Program-made: the position numbers and the translations under genes
The notes under the pieces: generated by a model
Database searches by the model: none
Told to the model about the DNA's origin: nothing
Seen by the model: only the letters and a program-made list of their open reading frames with translations
Assembly: GCA_949710005.1 (NCBI GenBank)
Contig: OX453276.1
Span: forward strand, 603,501-667,500
Reading direction: 5' to 3'
From: Ricordea florida
Taxonomy: Eukaryota > Cnidaria > Anthozoa > Corallimorpharia > Ricordeidae
Length of the DNA: 64,000 nt
Part shown: positions 11,811 to 52,379 of the stretch, in pieces
Layout: the number at the start of each line of letters is the position of its first letter
How positions within the stretch are numbered: the first letter of the stretch is position 1

Positions 11811-12215
11811 ATGGCGACTATAGCAATCATGCTTGGAGGGGCAGTCCTCAATGCAACAGCCTTCATTGGTGGAAATTATTTAGCAAAGGTCATTAGCGGC
11901 TCGTCTTCGACCGATCTCCAACTTGAAAGGGAGAGGCATGACAAAGCCATGGAGAAGTACCAAAAAGACTATGCTGCTTATCAAGAAAAACGAATGGCTT
12001 ATATTGACTTTGAAAATCGTAGGAAGGGTGATGAGAATCAAGCCTCTGAGAACATATCAAAGACGGATGAAGCGCTGAGATTGTACAATCAAATGGGCAA
12101 TCCCCCCAAATTCTCCGACTATTACCGACCCAATTCAGATCAAAAGACTGGAGAAATGGTTTATGTTTCTGGTGGGATGTTAGCCTTGGGATACATTGCC
12201 AGCAAGTGGATATAA
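11811..12215 (+). CDS. Membrane protein with central coiled coil (element 1)
   Basis: 134 residues. An N-terminal membrane segment (IAIMLGGAVLNATAFIGGNYL) leads into a long charged helix (LERERHDKAMEKYQKDYAAYQEKR). Next come NPPKFSDYYRP and a second membrane segment (VYVSGGMLALGYIASKWI) at the end. Only two or three residues differ from the element 2 copy, making it one of the most conserved genes of the set. I recall near relatives as uncharacterised coral and hydra proteins. Perhaps an internal virion membrane protein. Confidence 0.8.
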   Translation: MATIAIMLGGAVLNATAFIGGNYLAKVISGSSSTDLQLERERHDKAMEKYQKDYAAYQEKRMAYIDFENRRKGDENQASENISKTDEALRLYNQMGNPPKFSDYYRPNSDQKTGEMVYVSGGMLALGYIASKWI

Positions 12216-12229
12216 AATAATTTAGAAGT

Positions 12230-12253
12230 TTCCATATTCAACTTCAAATATGG
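12230..12253 (+). promoter_or_regulatory. Hairpin covering the start of the 312-residue gene
   Basis: CCATATT and AATATGG pair around an 8-nt loop (CAACTTCA), with the start codon inside the right arm. Element 2 has the same loop and one more base pair. It may tune translation or be a binding site. Confidence 0.35.
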
Positions 12254-35171: not shown

Positions 35172-35484
35172 AGTAGTTGTAAAAGGCCGGTTCTGGGCCA
35201 ACTTGGGTGTGGTCGATTTTTTTGGGCGTGGTCGATTTTCGATGTTACGATTTTTTTGCGAATTCGTGGTTTTGGGTGTGGCCGATTTTGTCGGATGGGT
35301 GTGGCCAAAAAAGTTTGTGCATAATTAATTGGGTCGAGTCGAGTTTGACTTGTTTGATTTTTTGATCGATTTTTTCGTTTGGATCGTCGATGTCCTTTGA
35401 GGGGTGGGGTGGGGGCCGATTTGTTAAAGTGGGATTTTGGGTCGAGGGTTGTACCGATTGGCATACGCGAACGAAATGGTTTAC
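35172..35484 (+). repeat. Left terminal inverted repeat of element 2
   Basis: Starts AGTAGTTGT and matches 52067-52379 over 313 bp with no difference that I could find. It extends past the start codon of the terminal gene (ATG 35476), so the first three codons of both end genes are identical by descent. It contains a G-rich tract (about 35400-35418). Confidence 0.92.
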
Positions 35485-36036: not shown

Positions 36037-36054
36037 TTATGTTAAGGGCACACA

Positions 36055-36132: not shown

Positions 36133-39100
36133 ATGGAGAACCTGACAGTCAAAGAGCTGAGGTCAATAGCCAAAAGAGCTGGTGTGAGTGTTCGAGGATT
36201 CAGAAAGGCTGAAATGCTCACAGCGTTATCTGACATGGACTTCGAGAACTTGCCAGTGAAGATATTACGAACCATGGCCAAGAGGTCTGGTATTCGAGGT
36301 TATGGCAGCATGCGTAAAGAGGGTCTTATTAATGCTATTGGAGCTCCACGTGTGGTTGAAGCCAACGTTCCAATCCCTGGTCCGGTTAGACCCACAAGAA
36401 CAAGACCCGCCCGGGCTTCGTATGGAAGGGCTATTGCTGCTGCCAGGCGTGAAATCATCCAGACCACAGAGTGGATAAGATCCAATGTTAGAGACCCAAA
36501 CAGGAGAGCCATCACCAGGAGATTAAGAAGGGCAGCTGCTGAGGTTAGAAGGGAACCAGAGTTTTTCGTCCCTGAAAGACATGAGACGGCTCTGAGAGGC
36601 TTTTTGAGGAGTTACATAGTGAATGGTAGAGCTGGATACGATCCACCTTCATTCCTTGGTAAGGTTAGAACACCATTCTATGTTTTGATGCTTAGACTTA
36701 GGAAGCCATTCAAGTTGAAGTGTATTCTGTCATGTGGATTCGCGAGGAGGAACCCCCAAGATAATCGTGTTACTGAGCGGAGTCAAGGTCATTTTCATTC
36801 ACTGATGGAGACAGTGACAGCTTCAACAGACACACTCGCTTTGTTTGATAGCATCAAAGCTAGACTGGTTGAACTGGTGCAGAGATACGAGAATGAGCAC
36901 TCTGGATGGGTGTTTGAAAGTGTGATTGATTTTCGTATCCATGCAAACCCATTTCAACCGTTTTCTGGAAGTTCGTACATTAAATTACCGTCCAAATTGG
37001 CTGCCAAGAAGGCCATCATCAATGTCAAGAATGAGGATCAGGAGTGCTTCAAATGGGCAGTGACATCCGCTGTGTTTCCAAACAAAGATCACCCATATAG
37101 ACTTAACAAAGAGATGAGAGAAAATGCAGAGAAACTCGATTGGTCAGGAATAGAGTTTCCAGTGGCGGCACTCAGTACAACTCAGATAGACAGATTTGAA
37201 AGGCAGAACCCATATGGGATCAACATCCTTGGTTATGAGAATGGCGAGCCAACTCTAATCAGGCGCAGTAAAAAGTCAGGGGGTACAAAGATAAACCTAC
37301 TCTTGATATCAAACGAAGAGACAAATCATTACTGTTGGATCAAGAATATGTCAAGACTTATCGAGTATAATGAGAACGAGCATGCCCGTTTCTATTGTGA
37401 CAACTGCCTAAACTCGTTCAATTGTAAAAAGTCGTTGGACGACCATATGGAGTACTGCCTAAACAACGAAGCAGTCAAAGTTCAGATGCCGATGGAGGAG
37501 GATGGCAGCCCAAAGTACATCACTTTCAAAAACCACAGACGAAAGATGCAAGTGCCATTTGTGATCTATGCTGATTTCGAGTGTTTCACCGAGAAGTTGG
37601 ACACCTGTTTACCGGATGACAGGGACAGCTTCACAAATCAGTATCAGAAGCACAAGCCATCAGGGTTCTGTTACCTTATCAAGTGCTTTGACGATGACAT
37701 CTTCGAGCCCAAGTTGGTGATGAGAACAGCCAACTTACCTGAGGATGACATACCGCAAATGTTTCAGGAAAGCTTGGAGGAGGATGTCAAGAAGATCTAT
37801 GATCAATTCAAATCTGAAAGGAAGCTTGTAATGAAGAACAGCGATCATAGGAAGCATGGAAAGGCTACTCATTGCCATATTTGTGAGGGTGAATTGGGGA
37901 ACGATAAGGTGGTCGACCACTGTCATTTTACAGGTAGGTACAGAGGAGCAGCCCACAAGAAATGTAACCTGGAATTCAGCATACCCAAGTTCTTCCCAGT
38001 CATCTTCCACTACTTGTCTGGATACGACAGCCATTTGTTTATCAAGAAGATGGGAGTGTCAGAGGGTAAGATTGATTGTATCCCACTCAACGATGAAAAG
38101 TACATCTCATTCACCAAAGAGATTGTGGTTGAAAAGTTCATGAAGAAGGATGATGATGGTAAGGAGAAGGAGGTTCAGATTAAACGAACCATTAGATTTG
38201 TAGACAGTTTTAGGTTCATGGCAAGTAGTTTGGCTAGTTTGGTTGACAACTTACCGAGAGAGTCTTTGGTAAATCTCTCGAGATACTATGAAGGGGCAAA
38301 CTTTGATCTTTTGGCTAGGAAGGGAGTGTTCCCCTATGATTGGTTTGATGGCTTTGATAAGTTACAAGTGTCCAGTCTGCCACCCAAGGATGAGTTCTAC
38401 TCGATACTATACGACACAGACATATCGGATGACGATTATCAACATGCCGGAAACGTGTGGGAGGCCTTTGGTATGAGAAGTTTCAGGGATTACCATGACT
38501 TGTATCTCAAAACAGATGTGATCCTGTTGGCTGACGTCTTTGAGAACTTCAGAGGGGTTTGTATGAAGAATTACGGGTTGGATCCAGCATGGCATTATAC
38601 TGCGCCTGGACTGGCTTGGGATGCTACATTGAAGATCACCAAGGTTGAGTTGGAGCTTTTGAGGGATCCCGATATGCTGATTATGGTGGAGAATGGCATC
38701 AGAGGTGGGATCTCAACGATCTCGACCAGGCACGGGAAGGCCAATAATCGATACATGAAGAACTATGATCCCAAGTTGCCTACAAAGTTCATCACCTATT
38801 TGGATGCGAATGGGCTCTACGGCTATGCAATGACTAAGGCGTTACCAACCCACGGTTTTGAGTGGATGAGTGATCAAGAGTTGGCAGACTGGAGGAACCA
38901 TCCATGCATATTGGAGGTGGACTTGGAGTACCCATTGGAGTTACACGATCTTCACAATGATTACCCATTGGCTCCAGAGAGGTTGGATGTGGATGGGGTT
39001 GTTAAGTTGATTCCCAATTTGAGAGCCAAGAAGAAGTACATTCTATACCACGAAGCTCTGAAACAGTATTTGTCATTGGGGTTGAAGTTGACCAAGGTAC

Positions 39101-40008
39101 ACAGAGGGATCAAGTTCGAGGAGTCAGAATGGATGAGGTCCTACATTGATTTGAACAACAGTTTGAGAGCCAGGGCTGAGAATGATTTCGAAAAGGAATT
39201 CTTCAAGTTGATGAACAACGCAGTGTTTGGCAAGACCATGGAGAACATTAGGAAGAGGGTGGATATCCAGTTGGTCACTGAGGAGAAGAAAGCGCGTAAG
39301 TTGATTGTGAAGCCAAACTTCCATCATAGGAACATCTTTTGCGAGGATCTGACCGCCTTCCACATGAAGAGAACGAAACTGCTCTTTGATAAGCCCATTT
39401 ACTTGGGGCTGTCCATTCTGGATCTTAGCAAGACTGTTATGTACGATTTTCATTACAGGTACATAAAGCCCAAGTACGGGGATAAGGCTAAGTTGCTGTT
39501 CACAGACACGGATTCTTTAGCCTATGTGATAGAGACTGAGGACTTTTACAGGGACATCAGTCCAGATGTGAGGGTTAAGTTTGACACCAGTAATTACCCC
39601 ACGGAGCATCCGTCCGGGATTGAGACCGGAGTGAACAAAAAGGTCGGAGGGATGTTCAAAGACGAGGCGGGTGGTGAACAGATCACGGAATTTGTGGGTC
39701 TGAGGGCTAAAATGTATGCTTTCAAGACGGATAAGGAGAAGGAAGTCAAGAAGTGTAAGGGTGTAAACAAGGCAGTGGTCAGCAAAAGCATAAGTTTCCA
39801 GGATTACAAGACTTGTCTTTTCAGTGGCCAATCCCAGAGACGGAAGATGAACACCATAAGGAGTCATAGCCATGACATCTATACTGAAACCATCAACAAG
39901 ATAGCATTATCACGCGAGGACGATAAACGTGTGATAATGGAAGATGGGATAAACACGTATGCACATGGTCATTTCAGAACGCTAGAAGGTGGTGATTCAG
40001 TGTCTTGA
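36133..40008 (+). CDS. polB: Protein-primed family B DNA polymerase (element 2)
   Basis: 1291 residues, the same length as in element 1 and nearly identical through the catalytic half. All exonuclease and polymerase motifs are intact (YADFEC, LSGYDSHLF, YLKTDVILLAD, DANGLYGYAM, NNAVFGK, DTDS). Most differences fall in the first 200 residues and in the segment between Exo I and the treble clef (about 555-580). This suggests the N-terminal part, where a terminal protein may sit, changes faster. Confidence 0.95.
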   Translation: MENLTVKELRSIAKRAGVSVRGFRKAEMLTALSDMDFENLPVKILRTMAKRSGIRGYGSMRKEGLINAIGAPRVVEANVPIPGPVRPTRTRPARASYGRAIAAARREIIQTTEWIRSNVRDPNRRAITRRLRRAAAEVRREPEFFVPERHETALRGFLRSYIVNGRAGYDPPSFLGKVRTPFYVLMLRLRKPFKLKCILSCGFARRNPQDNRVTERSQGHFHSLMETVTASTDTLALFDSIKARLVELVQRYENEHSGWVFESVIDFRIHANPFQPFSGSSYIKLPSKLAAKKAIINVKNEDQECFKWAVTSAVFPNKDHPYRLNKEMRENAEKLDWSGIEFPVAALSTTQIDRFERQNPYGINILGYENGEPTLIRRSKKSGGTKINLLLISNEETNHYCWIKNMSRLIEYNENEHARFYCDNCLNSFNCKKSLDDHMEYCLNNEAVKVQMPMEEDGSPKYITFKNHRRKMQVPFVIYADFECFTEKLDTCLPDDRDSFTNQYQKHKPSGFCYLIKCFDDDIFEPKLVMRTANLPEDDIPQMFQESLEEDVKKIYDQFKSERKLVMKNSDHRKHGKATHCHICEGELGNDKVVDHCHFTGRYRGAAHKKCNLEFSIPKFFPVIFHYLSGYDSHLFIKKMGVSEGKIDCIPLNDEKYISFTKEIVVEKFMKKDDDGKEKEVQIKRTIRFVDSFRFMASSLASLVDNLPRESLVNLSRYYEGANFDLLARKGVFPYDWFDGFDKLQVSSLPPKDEFYSILYDTDISDDDYQHAGNVWEAFGMRSFRDYHDLYLKTDVILLADVFENFRGVCMKNYGLDPAWHYTAPGLAWDATLKITKVELELLRDPDMLIMVENGIRGGISTISTRHGKANNRYMKNYDPKLPTKFITYLDANGLYGYAMTKALPTHGFEWMSDQELADWRNHPCILEVDLEYPLELHDLHNDYPLAPERLDVDGVVKLIPNLRAKKKYILYHEALKQYLSLGLKLTKVHRGIKFEESEWMRSYIDLNNSLRARAENDFEKEFFKLMNNAVFGKTMENIRKRVDIQLVTEEKKARKLIVKPNFHHRNIFCEDLTAFHMKRTKLLFDKPIYLGLSILDLSKTVMYDFHYRYIKPKYGDKAKLLFTDTDSLAYVIETEDFYRDISPDVRVKFDTSNYPTEHPSGIETGVNKKVGGMFKDEAGGEQITEFVGLRAKMYAFKTDKEKEVKKCKGVNKAVVSKSISFQDYKTCLFSGQSQRRKMNTIRSHSHDIYTETINKIALSREDDKRVIMEDGINTYAHGHFRTLEGGDSVS

Positions 40009-40958
40009 GGTACAAATTGAAGCTCTTCACGAACGAATCCTCGTTTTGGACCTCCACTCAAATAATACAAGACTGGTTGGCCTGGTTCGATGATGGTTCG
40101 AGCCAAATCATAGACTTCAAGACTCCATATGGGATCAGTAGCCCTTCGTTTGTCTCCACCTTCATCTTCACCAGGGGCATAAAGATACCTGACTTGAACA
40201 TCTGGAGGTAATCTCTTCTCATTCAACCCCACAGGTCGTTTGTAGTCTGGAGTTTTGGCGTCAATCGAGTCCATTTTCAAAGCTTCGTCGGGCTCTTTAC
40301 CAGTAATACGGGTGGTCTCACTGTTGAGGGTCTTCATGATGGCGGGCAATCTGTTCACCCAAACTGTGGATCGGGTATCACTAATCATCTCTTGAGCGTA
40401 TTGATGGCTGAATAGCTTCTCACCGAGAGTCCTGTTGGCCCTCTCCACAAAAGCTTGAGCTCTATGATTTCCAGCTTCACTACGCTGGATTGTGACTTGA
40501 TGCTTTTTCATAAGAGTTGTTACATCACCCTTGAATTCTGTTCCTGGATCCACCATTAATGTTTGTGGCCACTCCAACTTACGGGAATAAATCCGTTGAA
40601 AGGCATTGGCAACTTCACCACTCTCCTTTGAGGTCAGTGGTTCGGCATCCTTGTATCTTGACGCGATATCAATCACGACTAAGGCATAGCGGTATGTTTT
40701 TCTTCTCACTGTATCGTGAGGAAGAAACAGCAAGTCCGCTTGATGAATCTGATTAGGCTTATTCACACTCCAATGTGGCCTGGGTATATACTTAGGGGCC
40801 GGGAGGTAAATTTGCCACAAGGCTTGCTTTTCCAACCACTCTTTGGCGACCTTTTCACTAACTTTGGCTGCTTTGGCCAATTTGGGTATGGCTGAGTATC
40901 CTTTCCAGTATCCATCAGTGGAGTAATATAATCGATTTAAAACGTTAGAATCAGTCAT
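39969..40958 (-). CDS. int: Polinton DDE integrase (element 2)
   Basis: 329 residues, fewer than ten of which differ from the element 1 enzyme. D75, D137 and E172 are present. It overlaps the polymerase by 40 bp at the 3' ends and faces the capsid-like gene across 27 bp. The strong match across elements, stronger than for most other genes, fits continued use. Confidence 0.95.
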   Translation of the reverse strand: MTDSNVLNRLYYSTDGYWKGYSAIPKLAKAAKVSEKVAKEWLEKQALWQIYLPAPKYIPRPHWSVNKPNQIHQADLLFLPHDTVRRKTYRYALVVIDIASRYKDAEPLTSKESGEVANAFQRIYSRKLEWPQTLMVDPGTEFKGDVTTLMKKHQVTIQRSEAGNHRAQAFVERANRTLGEKLFSHQYAQEMISDTRSTVWVNRLPAIMKTLNSETTRITGKEPDEALKMDSIDAKTPDYKRPVGLNEKRLPPDVQVRYLYAPGEDEGGDKRRATDPIWSLEVYDLARTIIEPGQPVLYYLSGGPKRGFVREELQFVPQDTESPPSSVLK

Positions 40959-40985: not shown

Positions 40986-42221
40986 ATGGCTTCCATACCA
41001 AGCATTCTTGATGTCAATCGCGTTCCAAGGACTCGTGAAGGGTTGAAGGCTATGACGTCATTAAATAGAGTCACACTAAACCCATCGTCAGCCGAACCTG
41101 GTGAGACACTATACATTGAAATACCAAGATTGAGTGAAAATCCTGTGATTGTGCCCGGTAGCGTCTACATCACCTTTGACATGGTTGTAACCGGGCACAA
41201 AGACAACACTCTTGTTAATAATTTGGGAAGGAATCTGATTTCACAGTATAAGGTTCTATTTGGTGGTGAAGTCGTCGAGGATCTTGGTAGATTTGATTTG
41301 TTCAAGACTTACCATGACTTGTTTCTGACCACTGAAGACCGTGAGAATAGATTGAGACAGGGCATATCCAATGTTAACATAAGGAAGATCAGGACCAATG
41401 CGGGGAACAAAGATACGTCAAAAGCCAGGGACAATACGTTAGCTGTGATTCACAACACTAGGTACGCCATTCCATTAGATCACACAATCCTCAAAGATCA
41501 TGGAGTGTTTTATCCAATAGGATTACCCCATCCACTTAGATTTGAATTGACTTTGGCCAAAGTGTCTGATGTTGTGGTTTATTCAAACCGTGAAGCACCG
41601 CCTGATTACAAATTAATAAACATGGAGATGGAGTACCAGTGCATATCAAGCAATTCTTTGGCAAGTCAGGCTGTTGGGTCCTACACAAATGGGAAAGGGT
41701 TCACGTATGAAAAGGTACTTCTTCACAAAACTTTCACAATCTCTGAGGCTAATGATTCTGTGATAAATCAGCATGTCAATGTGCCGAGGAGATCCATGAC
41801 TGGTATACTATGTCTTTTCACCGCCCCTCATGCAGAAGGCCTCAGGGACTCTGAGATGTTTGCAAATCCAAAGATCACGTCAGTCAAGATTGACATAGAT
41901 GGAGTGCCCAACCAAGTTTATTTGAAAGGTATGATGGCGACTGATTTGTGGCAATCCGTCATTAAGCGAGTTGGCCTTAGTGATTCAATCGATGAAGCTG
42001 ATTTCTATACAGATAAGTTCGCTTTGTGGATTGACCTGAGGACTTATCCAGACAACGACATCCATGGGAGTGGTTTGTACATTCACGCTACTCGTGATGG
42101 AGTGACTTTGGAAATTAAGAGAGAAAAGGTAGGCACTAGAGTTCTTACGTGTCACATGTTTGTTATTGCTGACGCGGTCATGAGCATTGTTAATGGTGGA
42201 CTAAAGGAGATTAGATATTAA
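40986..42221 (+). CDS. Putative major capsid-like structural protein (element 2)
   Basis: 411 residues, colinear with the element 1 protein without gaps. Changes are mostly conservative and cluster near 225-235 (SNSLASQAVGSYTNG), a likely surface loop between the two beta halves. The same reservations on function apply. Confidence 0.55.
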   Translation: MASIPSILDVNRVPRTREGLKAMTSLNRVTLNPSSAEPGETLYIEIPRLSENPVIVPGSVYITFDMVVTGHKDNTLVNNLGRNLISQYKVLFGGEVVEDLGRFDLFKTYHDLFLTTEDRENRLRQGISNVNIRKIRTNAGNKDTSKARDNTLAVIHNTRYAIPLDHTILKDHGVFYPIGLPHPLRFELTLAKVSDVVVYSNREAPPDYKLINMEMEYQCISSNSLASQAVGSYTNGKGFTYEKVLLHKTFTISEANDSVINQHVNVPRRSMTGILCLFTAPHAEGLRDSEMFANPKITSVKIDIDGVPNQVYLKGMMATDLWQSVIKRVGLSDSIDEADFYTDKFALWIDLRTYPDNDIHGSGLYIHATRDGVTLEIKREKVGTRVLTCHMFVIADAVMSIVNGGLKEIRY

Positions 42222-42234
42222 GCCGCTGTATGGT

Positions 42235-42262
42235 TTTCTTCTCACGGTGTCATGAGAAGAAA
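42235..42262 (+). terminator. Hairpin after the capsid-like gene (element 2)
   Basis: Stem TTTCTTCTCA/TGAGAAGAAA, 8-nt loop CGGTGTCA, 13 nt after the stop. Stem identical to element 1. Confidence 0.6.
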
Positions 42263-42293
42263 CATCAATCTAAAGGGATTCATGTAGTGAGTA

Positions 42294-42932
42294 ATGATGA
42301 ACGAACTCAAAGATTTGATTCCATTCAATTGCATCATCACTGGTCCCACGAATTGCGGAAAGACCCAATACATAGTGGAGCAGCTTCGAGGGCACTATAG
42401 GCAAGTGTTTGATTATATTGTGTTGATTTGTCCAACATATGCCCATAACAAGACGTATAGAGGCTTTGCCAAGGGGGACAAACGATTCTTTGTCCTGTCG
42501 CCAGATGCCAGTGACCATGACGAAATCAACAATTTGTTGATGGACTGTGAATCGTTCTTCTCGGGTACCAATACACTCCTAATATTGGACGACTGTGCCG
42601 TTTCCAAGGATCTGAAGAATAGGTCCAACAAATTTATCGGTTTGGCCTTCTCTGGGAGACATGTAGGGTTATCGGTCTGGGTTCTCACTCAGCAATTGAC
42701 ATCTATAGCCAAACCATTCCGTGAAAATGTAGCCTGTGTGGTCTCATTTCACAATCCATCTCAAACGGCGATGAAGATGCTTTTCGAGGAGTATGGCGGG
42801 GACCTGGACGCTGAAACGTGGAAGAAACTCAAGAAGCATCTTATGAATGAAAAGTATGCCAGGCTGTTCTTCTCCCTCAGACATCCATTCCAAAATTATT
42901 TAGAGATACCAGCTCTGACGTCACAACCATGA
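42294..42932 (+). CDS. A32/FtsK-HerA-type DNA packaging ATPase (element 2)
   Basis: 212 residues with Walker A GPTNCGKT, Walker B LLILDD and the VWVLTQQ motif. Only about six residues differ from element 1. The end overlaps the next ATG by 4 bp. Confidence 0.93.
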   Translation: MMNELKDLIPFNCIITGPTNCGKTQYIVEQLRGHYRQVFDYIVLICPTYAHNKTYRGFAKGDKRFFVLSPDASDHDEINNLLMDCESFFSGTNTLLILDDCAVSKDLKNRSNKFIGLAFSGRHVGLSVWVLTQQLTSIAKPFRENVACVVSFHNPSQTAMKMLFEEYGGDLDAETWKKLKKHLMNEKYARLFFSLRHPFQNYLEIPALTSQP

Positions 42933-43480
42933 CAACTCCCGAAGAAATCATGAATGGTGAAACTGTGGTGGTGGAACAATCGCCGCCAACCATTAACGTT
43001 GATGATGTGAAAGCTAAAAGAGAAGAGCTGGCAATACTAACTTCTCTCGGCTCTAGCAAGGAGTATCTTGGCGTTCAGATGGCTCTAGGTGATGTCCACA
43101 GATTGTCGGATAGGGATGTAGAGAAGTACTACAAGAGGTACAAGATGGTGTCTGGTAAGAATGTGGCTGAAGGACTGATTGATCCTCCTTTACATCTATT
43201 GGCCAGACTAGTCAACTGGTCTCTTAGTAGTTACGGCAGAATAGATGAACCAGGTGCTTTGGTAGAGGATTGGAAGAACAATCAGTTGATCAAGCAGTCG
43301 CTGTCAGAATATTCTGGTTCAATCGTAGTACACGGTGGTGCGATTGTTACGTTATTGATAATAGCCCTCACCGCTCTCAAGCATTTCAGACTAGATGGGC
43401 CTAGCCCTCCCACTAGATTGTATGACATGGCCAACACGGATGAAGATTGGGGGGATGAGGGCGTCGACACTGTTCGGTGA
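42929..43480 (+). CDS. Unknown protein with C-terminal membrane anchor (element 2)
   Basis: 183 residues, homologous to the gene at 8805. The helical LGVQMALGDVHRLSDRDVEK part and the membrane segment are conserved. The tail after the anchor is four residues longer, with an acidic insert (EDWGDEG). Confidence 0.8.
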   Translation: MTTPEEIMNGETVVVEQSPPTINVDDVKAKREELAILTSLGSSKEYLGVQMALGDVHRLSDRDVEKYYKRYKMVSGKNVAEGLIDPPLHLLARLVNWSLSSYGRIDEPGALVEDWKNNQLIKQSLSEYSGSIVVHGGAIVTLLIIALTALKHFRLDGPSPPTRLYDMANTDEDWGDEGVDTVR

Positions 43481-43542
43481 AAAAATTGAAAACGATAGTG
43501 GAAGGGGTCGGTGTGGAGGCATACTCGAAAGAGATCGAAAAC

Positions 43543-44352
43543 ATGTCTCAGAGAACAAACTCGACTTCCTCAAATGGTTCAATGACGTCACTGAAAACTC
43601 TTTTTGTACCCATCGACGTAGATGACTTCAATTGGGACTCTATTGAGATAGAAGCTCCAGTGAAGAAAGGCAACTACTCATTTTCGAGACTTATTGTTCG
43701 GGATGGTGATGGTGAAGCCTTCAATCTAGCTTTCCAATTGGCTGACCAAAACATATTTGGCCTCAAATGGAACAATGGTCCTGAGAACAAAAAGCCCAAG
43801 TCTGGTATCAAATTCACCTATTTGCTGCGCGACGATGAAACTCGATCCAGGTTTGACACCATCATAGACAAAGTAGCTCTTGCCATTGAGAGGTTCTACG
43901 ATGATGAGACCATTCGCAAGAACATGCCCAAATTGAGCAAAATCCAGTCTGACACTATGAAGAAAGGGTCTACCATTGATTTGATCAAACCATCGTATAC
44001 CACAAATGAAAACGGCAATACATGTGTATACCCTGAATTCAACACAAGTGGAAGTGGTCCCAACTTGAAAAACTACACATCATTCAGAGGTCGAAAGAAG
44101 AGTGACCGGTGGATTGATTACATTCCGAACGATGCAGATGATGATAGTACAAGGGCATGTGCAACAGTCTCGTTGAGGATCAAAGGAATAACATTTGGTG
44201 CTTGTGGGACTGGGATGAGCTGTATGGCCAATGTGAAGTATGTGGTCCAAGCCATTAAACTAAGAAAGCCTATGGAAGAAGTAAAGGTCGAAGAGGATGA
44301 TGTTTTCGCAGGTATGTCTGACGAAGAAGACTCTGAGGAAAACGATGAGTAG
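43543..44352 (+). CDS. Acidic-tailed protein, candidate ssDNA-binding protein (element 2)
   Basis: 269 residues from the ATG in GAAAACATGTCTCAG. Start (SQRTNSTSS), a central FQLADQNIFGL, the STIDLIKPSY block and the acidic tail (DEEDSEENDE) align with the 315-residue protein of element 1, but most of the rest has diverged far more than neighbouring genes. Either fast evolution or replacement by recombination from another lineage. Confidence 0.7.
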   Translation: MSQRTNSTSSNGSMTSLKTLFVPIDVDDFNWDSIEIEAPVKKGNYSFSRLIVRDGDGEAFNLAFQLADQNIFGLKWNNGPENKKPKSGIKFTYLLRDDETRSRFDTIIDKVALAIERFYDDETIRKNMPKLSKIQSDTMKKGSTIDLIKPSYTTNENGNTCVYPEFNTSGSGPNLKNYTSFRGRKKSDRWIDYIPNDADDDSTRACATVSLRIKGITFGACGTGMSCMANVKYVVQAIKLRKPMEEVKVEEDDVFAGMSDEEDSEENDE

Positions 44353-44406
44353 GAATGTTGGTAGCAAAGGGTACGAAGAAATAAGGTTTGGGTGGGATCT
44401 GACAGT

Positions 44407-44438
44407 TTCCTAGTATGCCACTTACTAGGGGACTTAAA
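44407..44438 (+). promoter_or_regulatory. CCTAGTA hairpin plus GACTTAAAG motif, copy 3
   Basis: Stem CCTAGTA/TACTAGG, then GGGGACTTAAAG; 24 nt before the ATG at 44463. Confidence 0.55.
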
Positions 44439-44462
44439 GCTAACAATAGATTAACTCACAAC

Positions 44463-44885
44463 ATGTCTGAACAAGAAATGCAAACTAAAGAGTCTGGTGT
44501 TGGAAGAAACAAAAAGAAAGTCACACATGGTGTTATCGTGAAGCAAGATAATGGGGATATACACATATACTTGTTATCGAAAGATAACGAGGAAGTAAAG
44601 ACTTGTAATTGCACTAACCTAGCAAACGCATTAACCAATGTAGTTGTAAAGATGAGAGAAGATAAGAGAGTGAAGGTTACTCATTTTGTTGTACATGATG
44701 ATGGCGGTATATACTTTCGCTTGGAATTGAGTGAGGATGTAGTAGAGTATGTGTTATTTAGAGATGGGAAGGAAGTGTTTTCAAGTATGGACAGTAAAGG
44801 AGTGAGGCCCACAGCGCTAAAGACTGTGAAAATATTAACAATTGCAGCTGTAGTTGCAACCACAGCTTGGTTCCTAATCTTTTAG
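44463..44885 (+). CDS. Unknown anchored protein in the variable slot (element 2)
   Basis: 140 residues from the ATG after CACAAC. Mostly short beta strands (HGVIVKQDNGDIHIYLLSKD, THFVVHDDGGIYFRLEL, YVLFRDGKEVF) with a C-terminal membrane segment (ILTIAAVVATTAWFLIF). Element 1 has an unrelated 63-residue gene here between the same motifs. Function unknown. Confidence 0.7.
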   Translation: MSEQEMQTKESGVGRNKKKVTHGVIVKQDNGDIHIYLLSKDNEEVKTCNCTNLANALTNVVVKMREDKRVKVTHFVVHDDGGIYFRLELSEDVVEYVLFRDGKEVFSSMDSKGVRPTALKTVKILTIAAVVATTAWFLIF

Positions 44886-44899
44886 TATAAATGTTTAGT

Positions 44900-44932
44900 T
44901 TCCTAGTATACAACTTACTAGGAGACTTAAAG
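44900..44932 (+). promoter_or_regulatory. CCTAGTA hairpin plus GACTTAAAG motif, copy 4
   Basis: Stem CCTAGTA/TACTAGG, 16 nt after the stop at 44885, 29 nt before the ATG at 44962. Confidence 0.55.
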
Positions 44933-44961
44933 CTTAGAGTAGATTAACTCACAACGACAGT

Positions 44962-45369
44962 ATGTCTGAAGAGGTTGAGCAAATCACTAGAGAGCCTTCT
45001 GTCAAAACCAAGGTCAAAGACCCCAAGCGGGTCCAGGCTGGCAAAACGTTATCGGAAAAGAACAAGAGGGCTAGAGAGGCTTTGAAACGTGAAGAGGAAA
45101 GGGAGAAGAAAGAGAGCGAAAAGGAAGAGGATAAGGGTAGTTCTGGTGGTGGAAGAGGTGGTTGGATGCCGTCCCAAACTATCCTTTTAGCCATAGGTGC
45201 AATTGGCCTCACCGCCTATGGACTGTGGACCAACTATCGAGACAGGATACCTGACTTGCATTTTCCATCCATTACATTGAGATCGAAACCATCAAAGCCC
45301 AAAGTCACAGAAAGTCAGCCAGTGGCCAGTAAAGCAAATGAAACCGATTTAAAAGATGATGTGTTATGA
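44962..45369 (+). CDS. Basic coiled-coil protein with one membrane segment (element 2)
   Basis: 135 residues, counterpart of the gene at 10716. It lacks a few residues near the start (TSQ) and before the membrane segment (IPKY), and has a six-residue change near the end (VASKAN). Charged helix and anchor conserved. Confidence 0.8.
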   Translation: MSEEVEQITREPSVKTKVKDPKRVQAGKTLSEKNKRAREALKREEEREKKESEKEEDKGSSGGGRGGWMPSQTILLAIGAIGLTAYGLWTNYRDRIPDLHFPSITLRSKPSKPKVTESQPVASKANETDLKDDVL

Positions 45370-45375
45370 TTCAAA

Positions 45376-45597
45376 ATGGCGGAGAATAAGCTCGTAAAGA
45401 CAGTCACTGGCTCTGCAGTGCTCGTTGGATTGTCGGCTGGGATGGGCTGGCTTGGCAAAAAGGCTCTTCGGGAGTCATTCATCGGCGACCCATCGACCAG
45501 TATCATGAACTATGGCAAATGGGTGCTTGTGCTGACTATAGCCATGTATGTCAAAACCTATTTAGAGGATCAGAAGATACTACCCACAAGTGTCTGA
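45376..45597 (+). CDS. Small two-segment membrane protein (element 2)
   Basis: 73 residues; differs from the element 1 copy at only about three positions (VGLS for MMLS; Arg for Lys). Confidence 0.8.
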   Translation: MAENKLVKTVTGSAVLVGLSAGMGWLGKKALRESFIGDPSTSIMNYGKWVLVLTIAMYVKTYLEDQKILPTSV

Positions 45598-45599
45598 AC

Positions 45600-46061
45600 A
45601 TGACTCGCGATGAAGAATTAAAACAAACATTTTATTTTGCGGATAGGGATTATAAACAAGCTTTAGTGAGTCACGTTAGATCAACATTGGTTGAATTCTT
45701 GGATTGGCATGATTACTGGCTGAACAAAGACAGAGTACAGGATGACTTTTATGAAGTAACCGATATGATTAAAGACCCAAACGATCTTATGAAATGGTAC
45801 GCATACAAAAGGATGGAGGACGTTTATGGTGAAGGACTTAGGGAGTGTGAGCCCAAGTATTTTGATTTCCTTTTGGCAGAGTTGAAATGTCGTGATCTAG
45901 AATTCAGAAAGGAATATGAAGAGTATGTTAAGAAGAAGCGTGAAAACCACCCAAAGTCGTCAAAATCACCACGACAAGGCCCACACCCACTAGTATCATT
46001 TACGTTTGGAGTGTTGACATCGATCGTATTATACACGGGCTCGAAATTGTTTAAGAAGTAA
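45600..46061 (+). CDS. Variable-head protein with conserved C-terminal anchor (element 2)
   Basis: 153 residues. The anchor (GPHPLVSFTFGVLTSIVLYTG then SKLFKK) matches the gene at 11366, but the first 120 residues share little beyond scattered positions such as DLMKWY. A Lys-rich KKKRENHPKSSKS linker replaces the PTEKP repeats. The head may contact something that differs between lineages. Confidence 0.75.
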   Translation: MTRDEELKQTFYFADRDYKQALVSHVRSTLVEFLDWHDYWLNKDRVQDDFYEVTDMIKDPNDLMKWYAYKRMEDVYGEGLRECEPKYFDFLLAELKCRDLEFRKEYEEYVKKKRENHPKSSKSPRQGPHPLVSFTFGVLTSIVLYTGSKLFKK

Positions 46062-46077
46062 GACAACAAGTGGATAA

Positions 46078-46482
46078 ATGGCGACTATAGCAATCATGCT
46101 TGGAGGGGCAGTCCTCAACGCAACAGCCTTCATTGGTGGAAACTATTTAGCAAAAGTCATTAGCGGCTCTTCCTCGACCGATCTCCAACTTGAAAGGGAA
46201 AGGCATGACAAAGCCATGGAGAAGTACCAGAAAGACTATGCTGCTTACCAAAAGAAACGAATGGCTTATATTGACTTTGAAAATCGTAGGAAGGGTGATG
46301 AGAATCAAGCCTCTGAGAACATATCAAAGACGGATGAAGCGCTAAGATTGTACAACCAAATGGGCAATCCCCCCAAATTCTCAGACTATTACCGACCCAA
46401 TTCAGATCAAAAGACTGGAGAAATGGTTTATGTTTCTGTTGGGATGTTAGCCTTGGGATACATTGCCAGCAAGTGGATATGA
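46078..46482 (+). CDS. Membrane protein with central coiled coil (element 2)
   Basis: 134 residues, almost identical to the gene at 11811. The last codons overlap the ATG of the RPB6-like gene (ATGA at 46479-46482), an arrangement created where element 1 simply has a stop and a spacer. Confidence 0.8.
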   Translation: MATIAIMLGGAVLNATAFIGGNYLAKVISGSSSTDLQLERERHDKAMEKYQKDYAAYQKKRMAYIDFENRRKGDENQASENISKTDEALRLYNQMGNPPKFSDYYRPNSDQKTGEMVYVSVGMLALGYIASKWI

Positions 46483-46733
46483 CGACTGACAACACAATGA
46501 CTCCCCATGAGTATATCAAGTTGGTGGGGACCAGAGCTGAGCAATTGCGGATGGGCAGTAAACCAGTGATAGACTGGCCATTTGATTTCAATCCTATAGC
46601 CATTGCCAAGAGTGAACTCAGACAACGAGTCTTACCACTCAACATAATCAGGAAAATACCAGACTGTAATTCAAAGACTGGTTTCCGCGATGAAGTATGG
46701 AACCCAAACAACATGCATATACGAGACTTTTGA
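46479..46733 (+). CDS. RPB6-like RNA polymerase subunit (element 2 only)
   Basis: 84 residues. The pattern MTPHEYIKLVGTRAEQLRMG, P-V-I-D-W, IAKSELRQRVLPLNIIRKIPD is the conserved core of RPB6, the small subunit shared by eukaryotic RNA polymerases I, II and III and equivalent to bacterial omega. GTRA-x-Q, the IA-x-EL stretch and the P-x-x-I-x-R-x-x-PD ending are all in the right order and spacing. RPB6 helps assemble and stabilise the polymerase clamp; virus-encoded forms are known in asfar-like and other large DNA viruses. The upstream acidic tail of cellular RPB6 is missing. An upstream in-frame ATG (46473) exists, but ATGA coupling at 46479 is more likely. Element 1 lacks it. Confidence 0.82.
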   Translation: MTTDNTMTPHEYIKLVGTRAEQLRMGSKPVIDWPFDFNPIAIAKSELRQRVLPLNIIRKIPDCNSKTGFRDEVWNPNNMHIRDF

Positions 46734-46768
46734 AATCAATTTAGAAGCTGCCATATTCAACTTCAAAT

Positions 46769-47713
46769 ATGGCAACTGCTTATGATGATCCTGATTTGGA
46801 TCCGACTACACTAAATGAGGCAGGTGATGGTGATGATGGGGATGATACACTTTACTTGAGCCCAATCACAAAGACATCCACCACTCGTCCAATTGACCCT
46901 GATTATGCAGAGGAAGAAACCTCGTTTGGTGGTGTTGATGAAACTCGGCCCTTATTGATAGAAGAGATGGAAATTGAACAAGATGAAGCCTGGGCCAAGA
47001 TTAGATCAAGATTCCCCAAAGTTGATACATCGAAGTTTACAGCCAAACTGAATGAATTCAAACAAGTAGTCGTCAAATTGCTGAGGAAAGGATCAAAACC
47101 TTATGTGTTATTCAAAGGTGATGATGAATTGAATGATGGATTGCCGGACACCATCAAAAACAGTCTAGGCCCAAGAGCAGAAGAAGTTGTGGAAGCCAAT
47201 GATGGCGTGATCGCTGAGAAAAAGGGATTGCTCACCAAAATGAAGGAGAAGCTAAGATTCCAAAGAGATAAGCCACTGAAGACCCCAGAGGAAGAAAGTA
47301 ACATAGAGACTCTGGAAAGGGAAATCGGTGAGCAGGAGGGGGAGATAGCCAATTTGGAGAGTGAGAATGAAGAGATACAGGAACGAATGTCATTGCGGGA
47401 TCGTGTAAAGGCCATCTTCAAGAAATACGGATTCACAGTCTTTGCTGTCATGAGTGCCGTTGGAGTGGTCATTGGTGTCATAGTCTCCAACCTCTCCAAA
47501 GGGCTCTCGAGATTGGGCAAGGGTGTTGGTGATGGACTAAAAAACCTTGGGAAGAAACTTGGCGAATTGCTGCCTGGGATGGTGGGCGCTATTGTAAGCT
47601 TTCTGTTCAAGACTGCTGGAGAGGTCGTCTCATTCCTGGGGAAACATGCTTGGCTGTTAATAATGGCGGTTGTGCTTTACTTCATAGAAGAGTTAAAAAG
47701 GAAACGTACATGA
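46769..47713 (+). CDS. Large coiled-coil membrane protein (element 2)
   Basis: 314 residues, counterpart of the gene at 12250. The acidic head, coiled coil and three C-terminal membrane segments are conserved. The part most changed is the start of the coiled coil (about 148-175). The hairpin over the start codon is present with an 8-bp stem. Confidence 0.8.
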   Translation: MATAYDDPDLDPTTLNEAGDGDDGDDTLYLSPITKTSTTRPIDPDYAEEETSFGGVDETRPLLIEEMEIEQDEAWAKIRSRFPKVDTSKFTAKLNEFKQVVVKLLRKGSKPYVLFKGDDELNDGLPDTIKNSLGPRAEEVVEANDGVIAEKKGLLTKMKEKLRFQRDKPLKTPEEESNIETLEREIGEQEGEIANLESENEEIQERMSLRDRVKAIFKKYGFTVFAVMSAVGVVIGVIVSNLSKGLSRLGKGVGDGLKNLGKKLGELLPGMVGAIVSFLFKTAGEVVSFLGKHAWLLIMAVVLYFIEELKRKRT

Positions 47714-47898
47714 ATCAAATGAAGAGCTATTGTGTCAAAGAGAAAAAGCTGACCGACTGTGTGCCTGGTAGTGAAACCTTTGCCAAAACGGCCAAGGGAA
47801 GGCTGATGATGAAGTGCAAATGTTCCAGCTGTGGCATCATCAAAACTCGATTCCTCTCAGAGGCTGACTATAGAAGTTTAAAGATGACGAAGAAGTAA
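47710..47898 (+). CDS. Small zinc-ribbon protein, DUF5679-like (element 2)
   Basis: 62 residues. Four cysteines of the ribbon (C in SYCV, C in TDC, CKCSSC) match element 1. The start is the ATGA overlapping the preceding stop; a longer open frame back to 47650 lies inside the previous gene. Confidence 0.75.
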   Translation: MNQMKSYCVKEKKLTDCVPGSETFAKTAKGRLMMKCKCSSCGIIKTRFLSEADYRSLKMTKK

Positions 47899-47907
47899 TC
47901 AAACAAC

Positions 47908-48537
47908 ATGTTGAGCATTACTATGTACGAGTCTGAAGCCAGGGTGTATTTGGATCCCCCACTGGAAGAGGTTCGGGAGATCCAACTCCTCGACTGTATT
48001 GTACCCAAACGATTGGTCAACTTCAAGGATCGACAGGGCTTTCTCAAGGAGGATCGACCCATCATAATAATCCCGCCCGGTACATACTCTCTACGTGGCA
48101 TACACGCAATCCTTCTGAACGATACGGATAACGCCAAGCTGTCGATCGTTGAGACTGACACTGTTGATTACCTGTACTCCAACAAGGGCTTCAACATTAA
48201 ACTCACAAGAGGTCTCCAAGTTGCTCTTGGGGTGCCTGAAACCGTAACCCCTGGAAAGCTGTACCCCATAAACATACAGATGAAGGAACCGCTGAGACTT
48301 TTGTGTAGTCTAGTGGACAATAAGTCGTCATATGCGAATGAGACTAAGTATGGAGAACTCGTGAAACTCTCGCCTTCCCACCTCCTTGCTAACATACCAT
48401 CACAGGATTACCCAGCCATGCCAGTCCAAAACCATGAGAGTCTCCTAACCCACTTCGACTTAAGCATCCTCGACATTGGATGGAAGAAACTTGATCTGAC
48501 AGGCTCTCCCATCACATTCAGTTTACGATTCAGATAA
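47908..48537 (+). CDS. Putative minor capsid (penton-like) protein (element 2)
   Basis: 209 residues, one fewer than element 1. Strand pattern and the FDLSILDIGWKKLD ending are conserved. CTTAAAAG follows its stop and precedes the next gene. Confidence 0.55.
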   Translation: MLSITMYESEARVYLDPPLEEVREIQLLDCIVPKRLVNFKDRQGFLKEDRPIIIIPPGTYSLRGIHAILLNDTDNAKLSIVETDTVDYLYSNKGFNIKLTRGLQVALGVPETVTPGKLYPINIQMKEPLRLLCSLVDNKSSYANETKYGELVKLSPSHLLANIPSQDYPAMPVQNHESLLTHFDLSILDIGWKKLDLTGSPITFSLRFR

Positions 48538-48568
48538 CATCTTAAAAGTAAGTGATCCTCAGTCCAAA

Positions 48569-49171
48569 ATGGGAGAATATAAGGCGATTTACCCTAACTT
48601 GGAAGCCACTGCACCTCCTCCCACTGATGGACCATCATTCAGACTTCAACAATGTTGCGATGCCTTGAACAAGCTAAAGTCTGAATTAAACCACTACGAG
48701 ACAGTACTCAAAAAATACAACCGATCCAAGGGCACACTCATGAATGTAAGCTCGACCTGTGGTATACTGTCTTGCGTCTTGGCGGCTGGTGGATTGGGCA
48801 CATCTCTTAGTGGTGTCGGAATCGTCGCATCTGTACCATTGGGTGTGGTGAGTGGTGTATTTGTGTGCGCATCCATAGCATGTCAACAGATATCCAAGAG
48901 ACTGTCCCAGAAAGCCGTGAAGCACCAAAACACCATCACACTGGCCAGATCCAAGATAAACACCATTGAAGACCTGGTGTCCAAAGCCCTTCGTGACAAT
49001 ACGATCTCTGACTCAGAATTCTCGTTGATCATGGAAGAACTCAAGAAATTCGAAAAGCTCAAGGCTGAGATACGGGCTAAAGCTCAAAAAAATGTGAGTG
49101 GAGAGGACCCATTGGTGCTGAGGCAGAGAGTACGCGAAGAAATCCTCAAAGAACTAAAAGGAGGACCATAA
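48569..49171 (+). CDS. Membrane protein with hydrophobic hairpin (element 2)
   Basis: 200 residues, one more than the gene at 14047 (an extra residue in the APPPTDGPS head). The glycine- and cysteine-rich hydrophobic region and charged tail are conserved. Confidence 0.8.
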   Translation: MGEYKAIYPNLEATAPPPTDGPSFRLQQCCDALNKLKSELNHYETVLKKYNRSKGTLMNVSSTCGILSCVLAAGGLGTSLSGVGIVASVPLGVVSGVFVCASIACQQISKRLSQKAVKHQNTITLARSKINTIEDLVSKALRDNTISDSEFSLIMEELKKFEKLKAEIRAKAQKNVSGEDPLVLRQRVREEILKELKGGP

Positions 49172-49238
49172 CTATCATCTATGAACAAAACAAATACTAG
49201 TCCAAATAGACTTAAAAGTAATATTAATAAGAGTACAC

Positions 49239-49418
49239 ATGGATAACCGAGAAGTCAATGAAGCTCCAAAATATATAACTGAATCGGAATGTTCTATGTT
49301 AATAAATTCTAAACTGTATGATACAAGAAAAGAGGTTGAAGAATTATCTACAACAACCTCGTACGTGAAGGCTGCAGTAGTATTATATTTAGCATACTGG
49401 ATCTATGAACAGATATAG
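49239..49418 (+). CDS. 59-residue tail-anchored protein (element 2 only)
   Basis: A short open frame between the 200-residue gene and the 514-residue gene. It has 42 polar, acidic residues (ITESECSMLINSKLYDTRKE) and then a C-terminal hydrophobic segment (VKAAVVLYLAYWIYEQI). A CTTAAAAG motif 22 nt upstream and another CTTAAAAG after the stop place it as a separate transcription unit. Element 1 has only 70 bp here and no such gene. Function unknown. Confidence 0.6.
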   Translation: MDNREVNEAPKYITESECSMLINSKLYDTRKEVEELSTTTSYVKAAVVLYLAYWIYEQI

Positions 49419-49467
49419 ATTAATGACTTAAAAGTTTAACCCCTTCTACCCAAATTCTGGATAGAAG

Positions 49468-51012
49468 ATGGGCTTACTCGGTGACTTCAGAAACAAGTAT
49501 CCAAAGGCTGACCGTGATCAATTCAACTTTGTGAACGATCAATATGGGGGGTACGTTAGATGGAAAGATAACGGTATGACAGTCATGTCCTATGATGACC
49601 CCAGTGGTAAAACATGGACTGATGGGATGCGGCCAAGTTTGAAATCACGACTCTGGATTGATCTTGGACTGGCTGATGATGGCACACTGAACTCATTCCC
49701 ACCAAGCCTAACCATGACCAAACGATACTACCCGATACCCGCCGTTGACTTTGACAGCCCCACCAGTAACACCACAAACATGCTGACCTCACTGGACATA
49801 TACGTGTCCAATACGAAGAAATTCACCGCCAAGATGCGTAATGTTTTCACCTCCCAAGTTGTAACTTTCAAGTTTGGGAAACAAAGTCGAACGTGGTTGA
49901 ACGCCCCCGACATGAACTACTGGCCACAACAGCTTAACTTTGCAGTGTGGTGTGCGACCTCTGGCTGTGGGATTAGCCCCTTCGAGAGCCTCAACTACCC
50001 CAAAGTCGTGAGCAGCTTCATCAAGTTTCATGTGTATTTCACCGTAAGACGAATATTGTATGAACTGAGTCTTCCACTGCCTGATGAGCAGCCCTTTGTA
50101 ATCAACAACAACCCTTACAGCAAGGTCGCATATCAACGATTGTGCGCTGAATTTGGCATCTCAAACAACTCTGATTTCAGATGGAAAGGTGGACGAAACG
50201 GGGGTTTGGGTGACATATTCATCGATTATGGGGCTGGGTACCATGGAGTAGGTGGAGGATACCAAAACGTCCATGTGGTAAGAAACTATGACGATGGAGC
50301 TGACCAATGGCCTGGTGAAGGTGGCAAATTCGCTGATGATGGGGGTAAAAAGGAAAAGGGCGACCTCATCTCATTCATCCGTAATGACGACTTTGCTGAT
50401 TACAAGTATGCTTGGTTCATCCCAACTAGTGGCTATGGACTCACTAAAGCTGGACTTGGTAGACTAAATCGGTCTGCTGAAGCCTTTGTTTACTGCGTGT
50501 TGGGGGCTCAAGTCAACACTAGAAACTCGATTGTGGGCGCGGGTGGTGGAGCGGTCGAGACCCAACAAGAATTCTTGGCCCTGTTTGAGAGTAGTGTCAT
50601 CGAGAATGACATTTCGAGTTCGATCCAAAGGTACCAACTGGCGACTCAAGAGGCTAAATTAAGACTTGATTTGGCCATTGCTCCTGGAGTGTGGTTGATG
50701 CCCAGTAACATGATCATAAACACGGAGAGCGTGGTCGGGTATAACAACAACCTCATGAAGGCCACTGATGAGATGAAATTTGGAGTCAACACAAACATAA
50801 ACTTGGAGACTAAGACTGTGGGGATCAACCATAATCTGGGGTCTTCAAAAATCAAGTTGCCACATGCAATTGTAGAGACTAAACGTTCAACAACAGCACC
50901 AACGATTCATCCTCGCCCTGAAATCAAAGAAGAAACAAATACCAATCATGAAACCAACCTGATACTGCTAATCATTGGAGTTGGAATTACCGCTTGGATG
51001 CTCTTCAGATAA
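49468..51012 (+). CDS. Large conserved structural candidate with C-terminal anchor (element 2)
   Basis: 514 residues, counterpart of the gene at 14717. Nearly all changes lie in the first 60 residues and in the linker before the anchor (about 470-490). The central aromatic and glycine-rich parts are almost unchanged. Confidence 0.8.
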   Translation: MGLLGDFRNKYPKADRDQFNFVNDQYGGYVRWKDNGMTVMSYDDPSGKTWTDGMRPSLKSRLWIDLGLADDGTLNSFPPSLTMTKRYYPIPAVDFDSPTSNTTNMLTSLDIYVSNTKKFTAKMRNVFTSQVVTFKFGKQSRTWLNAPDMNYWPQQLNFAVWCATSGCGISPFESLNYPKVVSSFIKFHVYFTVRRILYELSLPLPDEQPFVINNNPYSKVAYQRLCAEFGISNNSDFRWKGGRNGGLGDIFIDYGAGYHGVGGGYQNVHVVRNYDDGADQWPGEGGKFADDGGKKEKGDLISFIRNDDFADYKYAWFIPTSGYGLTKAGLGRLNRSAEAFVYCVLGAQVNTRNSIVGAGGGAVETQQEFLALFESSVIENDISSSIQRYQLATQEAKLRLDLAIAPGVWLMPSNMIINTESVVGYNNNLMKATDEMKFGVNTNINLETKTVGINHNLGSSKIKLPHAIVETKRSTTAPTIHPRPEIKEETNTNHETNLILLIIGVGITAWMLFR

Positions 51013-51053
51013 AAATTGAAATTGCCAATCCATAGATCATGGCCTCACAAATC

Positions 51054-51422
51054 ATGACATCATTGGCAATCGTTGGCAGCAGGTACTTCAATGACATGTC
51101 CTTCTTGAAAGATCAAATACATAAAGCCCTCAAGAAATGGAAGCTGGATCTCTCAGACATACAATTGATTGTGTCTGGGGGTGCAGAAGGAGTTGATGAA
51201 CTAGCTAAAGATTTTGCCACTGAAAAGGAGATCCCATTCAAAGCGTTTGAACCTCAATGGGACTATTACGGCAAGGCGGCTGGGCCAATTCGCAATAGGC
51301 AGATCATGGAGTGTGCAACGCATGTATTGGCCTTGCCTTCTTGTATTTACTCACCAGGTACCAAATCCGCTATTAAGTTGGCTAGGAAATACAAGAGAGA
51401 GGTTATAGTCGTTTATGTCTAA
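51054..51422 (+). CDS. SLOG-fold (YspA/DUF2493-like) nucleotide-binding protein (element 2)
   Basis: 122 residues from the ATG shared with element 1; here an upstream ATG at 51039 is also in frame and would add MASQI. GSRYF, SGGAEGVDELAKDFA, IRNRQIMECATHVLALP and GTKSAIKLARK are present. Changes cluster after GSRYF (NDMSFLKDQIHKA). Confidence 0.85.
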   Translation: MTSLAIVGSRYFNDMSFLKDQIHKALKKWKLDLSDIQLIVSGGAEGVDELAKDFATEKEIPFKAFEPQWDYYGKAAGPIRNRQIMECATHVLALPSCIYSPGTKSAIKLARKYKREVIVVYV

Positions 51423-51436
51423 TGATTAAGTGAACT

Positions 51437-51461: not shown

Positions 51462-51475
51462 AATATCATGCATGA

Positions 51476-52075
51476 TTACCAGTGAGTCCCCCAACGCTCC
51501 TTCACCTCTTGGAACTCTTCCACATCAAGACACCAGTATACAAACCTACTTGGGTGCCATGTAACAGACATTAGTTCTTCCCAAATTTCATTTCGGAAAA
51601 TACGTCTGTGCTGAACCTTCCAAACCTTATGTAACAACTCGTCTTTGAAACTTGTGTGTATGTTAACTGCAAGATCTCCGATAAGAAGGTCATCGACAGA
51701 ATATGACCGTTCAAGGTCAGCGTCCATCATACCAAACAGAGTTAAATCTTCCGCGCCCTTACATAAGTCCTCAGCGATGTCCTTGACACACAACTTGTCA
51801 AAATCTTTTTGTGTGTATTCACATACTATCTCGTTATCGTCAATTGGAAAAAAAGCCATGGTAAATACAAGACGGACCTTCTCGACCAAACACTGGTTAA
51901 AACTAAACACTCTACGTAATATCCTTGGTTTGTTCTTTTCCAGGAAATCATAAACTCCTGACGAGTCCACGTTGTCATAGATAAAGCTGAATGACGTTGG
52001 CATCATAATGTCATTAATGAAAGCAATTTCGTCCATCATTTTGTTCAAGTATGCCTGACGGTACCAGTAAACCAT
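51476..52075 (-). CDS. Right terminal-family protein (WHPxR motif), element 2
   Basis: 199 residues from the ATG inside the inverted repeat (an in-frame ATG 39 bases further out is also possible). It shares its core and the TWHPSRFVYWCLDVEEFQEV tail with the gene at 17957. The first three codons are the same as those of the left-end gene because both lie in the repeat. Function unknown. Confidence 0.75.
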   Translation of the reverse strand: MVYWYRQAYLNKMMDEIAFINDIMMPTSFSFIYDNVDSSGVYDFLEKNKPRILRRVFSFNQCLVEKVRLVFTMAFFPIDDNEIVCEYTQKDFDKLCVKDIAEDLCKGAEDLTLFGMMDADLERSYSVDDLLIGDLAVNIHTSFKDELLHKVWKVQHRRIFRNEIWEELMSVTWHPSRFVYWCLDVEEFQEVKERWGTHW

Positions 52076-52379
52076 TTCGTTCGCGTATGCCAATCGGTAC
52101 AACCCTCGACCCAAAATCCCACTTTAACAAATCGGCCCCCACCCCACCCCTCAAAGGACATCGACGATCCAAACGAAAAAATCGATCAAAAAATCAAACA
52201 AGTCAAACTCGACTCGACCCAATTAATTATGCACAAACTTTTTTGGCCACACCCATCCGACAAAATCGGCCACACCCAAAACCACGAATTCGCAAAAAAA
52301 TCGTAACATCGAAAATCGACCACGCCCAAAAAAATCGACCACACCCAAGTTGGCCCAGAACCGGCCTTTTACAACTACT
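52067..52379 (-). repeat. Right terminal inverted repeat of element 2
   Basis: Reverse complement of 35172-35484, ending ACAACTACT. Confidence 0.92.

Follow-up and report, generated by a model that had tools for sequence, protein, structure and literature searches.

An RPB6-like RNA polymerase subunit of probable viral type in a Polinton-like element of Ricordea florida

Introduction

What use could a small integrating DNA element make of one subunit of an RNA polymerase? The question is raised by an 84-amino acid (aa) protein encoded in a 64,000-nucleotide (nt) stretch of the Ricordea florida genome (contig OX453276.1, positions 603,501 to 667,500; hereafter the window), where its gene lies in a 17-kb Polinton-like element, element 2; element 1 (about 1008-18798), of the same family, lies in the same window. 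It has been stated that all cytoplasmic Nucleocytoviricota encode RNA polymerase subunits, and the lack of these subunits in mriyaviruses has been interpreted as pointing to replication in the nucleus (PMC11253617). An integrating element of 17 kb in which selection maintains a single such subunit departs from this view. RPB6 belongs to all three RNA polymerases (Pol), I, II and III, and assists in RPB1 assembly, so a foreign version would give uncommonly direct access to transcription. A single gene also makes it possible to test whether genes have passed between giant viruses and Polintons. In the open-access literature searched, in which adintoviruses were incompletely covered, neither Polintons nor virophages were reported to carry RPB6. 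The accessible portions of PMC11253617, PMC11464507 and PMC11172284 do not treat a Polinton RNA polymerase subunit gene, and those of PMC11071296, PMC11071308, PMC12220804, PMC10120064 and PMC7805220 contain no relevant mention of an adintovirus-type RNA polymerase gene.

Identity of the 84-aa protein

The protein matched RPB6 in a phmmer search of the PDB (E 4.8e-8), and a profile of 14 relatives matched RPB6 at 3.3e-14; the single-sequence Pfam score was below the family cut-off, and a 30-residue C-terminal query gave no PDB match. Modelled as a single chain, the protein has a predicted RPB6 fold, and asfarvirus C147L aligns to residues 3-81 of its 84. The element proteins keep 124 of 144 residues common to cellular and viral RPB6, with R19, A20, P39, I42, A43 and E46 kept in all eight element-type proteins; these residues lie in the RPB1-binding core. 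Judged by sequence similarity and predicted fold, the gene product is a true RPB6, probably of viral type, a member of the family that comprises RPB6/RPABC2 in eukaryotes, Rpo6 (subunit K) in archaea and omega in bacteria; the suggestion of an earlier note on this DNA, that a Polinton-like element carries an RPB6-like subunit, is thereby borne out. The element protein differs from cellular RPB6 in being encoded by a mobile element, in its low identity (32-37% over six segments), in a C-terminal insertion and in lacking the long N-terminal part, some 50-80 residues that precede the core of cellular chains. This tail of cellular RPB6 is rich in acidic residues, and in the human protein it is a binding site for TFIIH.

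Residence and selection of the gene in the element family

We searched the source genome (538 Mb, 48 contigs) for further copies. The first search yielded 374 candidates, and the best 150, which were scored, all matched and were free of internal stops. A second search, with fly RPB6 as query, yielded 385 candidates; one of the best 150 contained a stop, and no RPB6 of the host itself could be recognised in this set of 150. Both searches together gave at least 255 distinct RPB6 places, on contigs C1-C16, of which C5 contains the window. These sets consist of best-scoring places and are biased towards intact, similar copies. In the first 30 loci, the window copy included, the 134-aa gene that adjoins RPB6 in element 2 lay upstream in all 30 (split at two loci, bearing a stop at one) and the adjoining 314-aa gene downstream in 29, while six further loci (60-79% identity to P0001, the 84-aa protein used as query for identities) had both flanking genes. 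All 36 loci thus had an upstream copy of the 134-aa gene, sometimes broken, and 35 had a downstream copy of the 314-aa gene; the loci were found through RPB6 itself, so the frequency of its absence is not derivable from them. RPB6 is resident at one fixed junction in copies 60-100% alike; its presence there even at 60% identity implies that the gene is old in the element family. In element 1 the two corresponding neighbours flank no RPB6 gene, and there is no trace of one elsewhere in it; given the age of the gene in the family, the sequences indicate that element 1 most likely lost it. Of the accessory gain or loss proposed in the earlier note, a loss in element 1 is thus the likely event.

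Among the 30 best-scoring copies, mean pairwise nonsynonymous (dN) and synonymous (dS) divergence was 0.057 and 0.370, a ratio of 0.153 (431 of 435 pairs), and dN was at or above dS in three of the 431 pairs. No RPB6 copy of the 30 contained a stop, and the variable sites by codon position numbered 20, 18 and 43 of 84. At the same 30 loci the flanking genes had ratios of 0.101 and 0.229, each with one stop-bearing locus. These results demonstrate purifying selection on RPB6 among the best-scoring copies.

Relatives of the element protein

We compared the element proteins with cellular and archaeal sequences and with 22 proteins, 99-124 residues long, which we name the 109-aa group after P0022. 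P0001 is 38-58% identical to this group, 32-37% to the six cellular RPB6 segments and 31-37% to three archaeal sequences. Seven of the 22 group members bear the JGI (Joint Genome Institute) name RNA polymerase subunit K/omega, and three lie on large database contigs, of 418,781 (P0022), 176,275 (P0024) and 534,407 bases (P0030). The C-terminal insertion and the residues Y12, G26, W33 and K59 are common to element and group and different in cellular RPB6 (three of five archaeal rows entered this residue comparison); the first ~20 residues of the group are missing from the element proteins.

Trees were made from cellular, archaeal, group and element rows, and the named giant viruses were compared by pairwise match only. 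The outgroup consisted of five archaeal loci from a prokaryote genome scan, read as Rpo6. The fragments P0006 and P0016 and the protein P0026 (P0025 with a longer start) were omitted from all three trees, and P0015, P0023 and P0028, which have long branches, also from the tree used in the approximately unbiased (AU) test. The tree with own-genome copies comprised 13 of 36 such copies, 18 of the 22 group members (P0015, P0023, P0028 and P0032 out), four of six cellular rows and no archaea, with the window copy replacing P0001 and with P0002 out. In the AU-test tree the element-type proteins, eight in number (P0001-P0005 and P0007-P0009), formed one clade (support 100/96), which sat inside the 109-aa group and adjoined P0010, P0011, P0017 and P0020; the element clade together with these four had support of 97/96, 95/91 and 97/90 in the three trees. 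In the AU test a single clade of element and cellular RPB6 was rejected (p 0.029), and a 109-aa group that forms a clade to the exclusion of the elements was not rejected (p 0.064). P0005 was inseparable from the own-genome copy L041 in the tree with own-genome copies, so some of the database matches may come from the same or a close species.

In a BFVD search the model of the element RPB6 had giant-virus RPB6 as its best matches (asfarvirus C147L, Marseillevirus LCMAC102, Abalone asfa-like virus and others), with 23 matches at E <= 1e-3 and at most 34% identity to named viruses. The P0022 model (mean predicted local distance difference test score, pLDDT, 74.6) likewise had no match at E <= 1e-3 above 34% identity. 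From the size of the three contigs and the BFVD matches of P0022 we infer that the 109-aa group is giant-viral, and the ancestor of the element RPB6 would have been acquired from a giant-virus-like donor. Scans of viral contigs with the RPB6 protein, RPB6 alignments, capsid or ATPase queries returned no relative, and tblastn of P0022 against phage records gave no match. Element RPB6 resembles the viral genes of giant viruses in its best BFVD matches; RPB6 of African swine fever virus is found beside seven other subunits (PMC10881513), whereas the element RPB6 is alone.

Possible partners and alternative explanations

RPB6 is a binding partner of RPB1 to which a role in assembly or stability is ascribed (PMC10881513). 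Because no further RNA polymerase subunit was recognised by Pfam in the 20 open reading frames (ORFs) of element 2 that were scanned (shorter and antisense ORFs fell outside the scan), the element RPB6 would work by docking on an RPB1-type subunit from outside the element. RPB6 alone is not known to have any activity. Our preferred reading, in which we believe about as much as we doubt it, is that this viral-type RPB6 docks on the RPB1-type subunit of a polymerase encoded outside the element. That polymerase would most likely be host Pol II, and perhaps also Pol I or III, in the nucleus that houses the integrated element. Host Pol II is the first choice because an integrated element sits in the nucleus with Pol I, II and III; a giant-virus enzyme would come second, because the protein has viral character, and a use outside polymerase third. 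The element subunit would replace host RPB6 in newly assembled enzyme, which might thereby be stabilised or altered in the element's favour, and such an enzyme would lose tail-dependent TFIIH binding, because the element RPB6 has no N-terminal tail. The earlier note had proposed that a replacement of this kind could bias Pol II towards promoters of the element; it had left the polymerase of a giant virus, another possible partner, out of account.

Several observations weigh against this reading. The common residue L16 is lost in all eight element proteins and D38 in four of them, there is an insertion near the C terminus, and viral-type instead of cellular residues occupy many positions, so that the protein may be better suited to a viral than to the host RPB1. 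Element 1 is free of RPB6, yet most of the genes that it has in common with element 2 have low dN/dS (0.04 to 0.58 in 15 gene pairs, and below 0.1 for the integrase, the ATPase, the capsid candidate and the 134-aa gene). The copies tested for selection were the best-scoring ones, a choice that favours intact genes. No promoter motif beyond dinucleotide shuffles was found in 18 upstream regions, by counts or by position clusters, and the best 5-mer was equalled in 76 of 200 shuffles. The motif TTTAA at first seemed promising; it was equalled in 23 of 500 shuffles and had been chosen after the fact, and we rejected it.

Virophages such as mavirus are integrating, capsid-bearing and linked to giant viruses, and element 2 is likewise integrating and bears a capsid candidate. 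The element could be a virophage-like passenger of a giant virus that infects the host, and its RPB6 would plug into the enzyme of the viral factory, either for transcription of the element or to spoil that of the giant virus; we regard this as rather unlikely. In its favour, the element proteins cluster with the 109-aa group, and within it in the best trees; three of the 22 group proteins come from contigs 176-534 kb long, an insertion and residues missing from cellular RPB6 are common to element and group, and virophages use giant-virus promoters (PMC11172284). Unlike for mavirus, however, no giant-virus partner is known for the host or shown for the element, the upstream regions have no common promoter motif, and the nesting is not forced by the AU test, which allows a group clade without the elements. 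That this whole Polinton family depends on a link to a giant virus in the manner of virophages, with the captured RPB6 redirecting or poisoning the giant-virus RNA polymerase, we consider less probable again; if it were true, the hundreds of copies would be a heritable store against giant viruses in the host genome, possibly an animal's. A slightly fainter prospect is that the RPB6 fold is used outside polymerase, for instance as an antagonist of innate immune signalling. Asfarvirus C147L has been reported to block RIG-I-like receptor signalling via MAVS-TRAF6 (PMC13126741), but such a use would not need the retention of most of the common residues.

The remaining explanations concern the status of the gene, and a chance ORF was among those rejected or disfavoured. 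A dead passenger without function is very improbable: the RPB6-free element 1 and the three pairs with dN at or above dS would fit it, but the ratio of 0.15 and the lack of stops in 30 copies disfavour it, as do the near-absence of stops from the two sets of 150 best-scoring places, biased as these are. Hardly credible at all is the idea that the element recently captured an RPB6 exon from its host; we found no supporting point for it. The cellular segments used in this comparison, to which host RPB6 did not belong, are less similar to the element protein than the 109-aa group is, the AU test rejects a clade of elements with them, and copies in the same genome have diverged down to 60% identity. 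The earlier note had also allowed for a gene confined to the window copy and taken from a recent cellular exon; the 255 places, together with that AU result, speak against it.

Organization of element 2 and other features of the window

Element 2 spans 35172 to 52379 and is flanked outside both ends by a 5-bp target duplication, CAATA. Its terminal inverted repeats, target duplication, rve integrase and A32-type ATPase are hallmarks of Polinton/Maverick elements (Table 1). With these and with adintoviruses it has in common the terminal inverted repeats, the integrase, the ATPase, the capsid candidate and the size of 17 kb; it differs in having an RNA polymerase subunit gene aboard, in its 5-bp target duplication, where 6 bp is usual for Polintons, and in that no protease was recognised by Pfam in the ORFs scanned. 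The 1291-aa ORF we presume, from its motifs, to be a protein-primed family B DNA polymerase (PolB), and no PolB family was among its Pfam matches at E <= 0.1. A PDB sequence search with the capsid candidate gave no match. Cnidarian capsid genes have been reported outside the main Maverick-Polinton cluster (PMC10120064), a placement that, for a cnidarian host, would be in keeping with an element out of the ordinary. The TGA of the 134-aa ORF and the ATG of the RPB6 gene overlap as ATGA.

Table 1. Positions of features within the window
Feature	Positions	Strand	Remarks
RPB6-free junction of element 1	12213..12249	+	
Left terminal inverted repeat, element 2	35172..35484	+	313 nt, 100% identical to right repeat
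1291-aa ORF	36133..40008	+	Pfam: Rho_N, Endonuclease_7, weak SAP and DpnI only
Retroviral-type integrase	39969..40958	-	rve, PF00665, E 1.4e-7, 32.1 bits (cut-off 32.6)
Capsid candidate	40986..42221	+	PF16903 Capsid_N, E 4.5e-5, 23.5 bits (cut-off 24)
A32-type packaging ATPase	42294..42932	+	PF04665, E 4.8e-11
134-aa ORF	46078..46482	+	directly upstream of RPB6 gene
RPB6-like RNA polymerase subunit, 84 aa	46479..46733	+	
314-aa ORF	46769..47713	+	directly downstream of RPB6 gene
DUF5679-like protein, 62 aa	47710..47898	+	E 1.2e-5, 25.7 bits (cut-off 27)
Right terminal inverted repeat, element 2	52067..52379	-	

Element 1 is probably the older insertion, because its repeat arms are 97% alike. 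Between the two elements, 12 gene pairs are 85-99% identical and one 77%, whereas the genes of element 2 at 43543-44352 and 45519-46061 are merely 38% and 48% identical to their counterparts, by local replacement or very fast change. Element 2 also encodes a SLOG-family protein at 51039-51422 (PF10686 YAcAr, E 2.4e-11), 90% identical to its counterpart in element 1, and a 156-aa ORF at 44415-44885 that has no similar-sized ORF at the matching place of element 1 and a weak Pfam match to MH2 (E 8e-4, below the cut-off, possibly chance). Conversely, the reverse-strand ORFs near the right end of element 1, 16719-17141 (repeated HGR...C..C units) and 17419-17871, seemingly have no counterpart in the ORF list of element 2.

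A third, broken relative at 19498-26030 consists of an integrase, a first capsid part (58% identical to element 2 over 184 aa), an insert, the rest of the capsid candidate and a piece of the ATPase; the insert (21290-25121) has 176-nt inverted repeats at its ends and, by eye, an integrase-like ORF. At 3-741 lies a C-terminal fragment of a DNA polymerase of the same family, 80-82% identical in DNA to those of elements 1 and 2.
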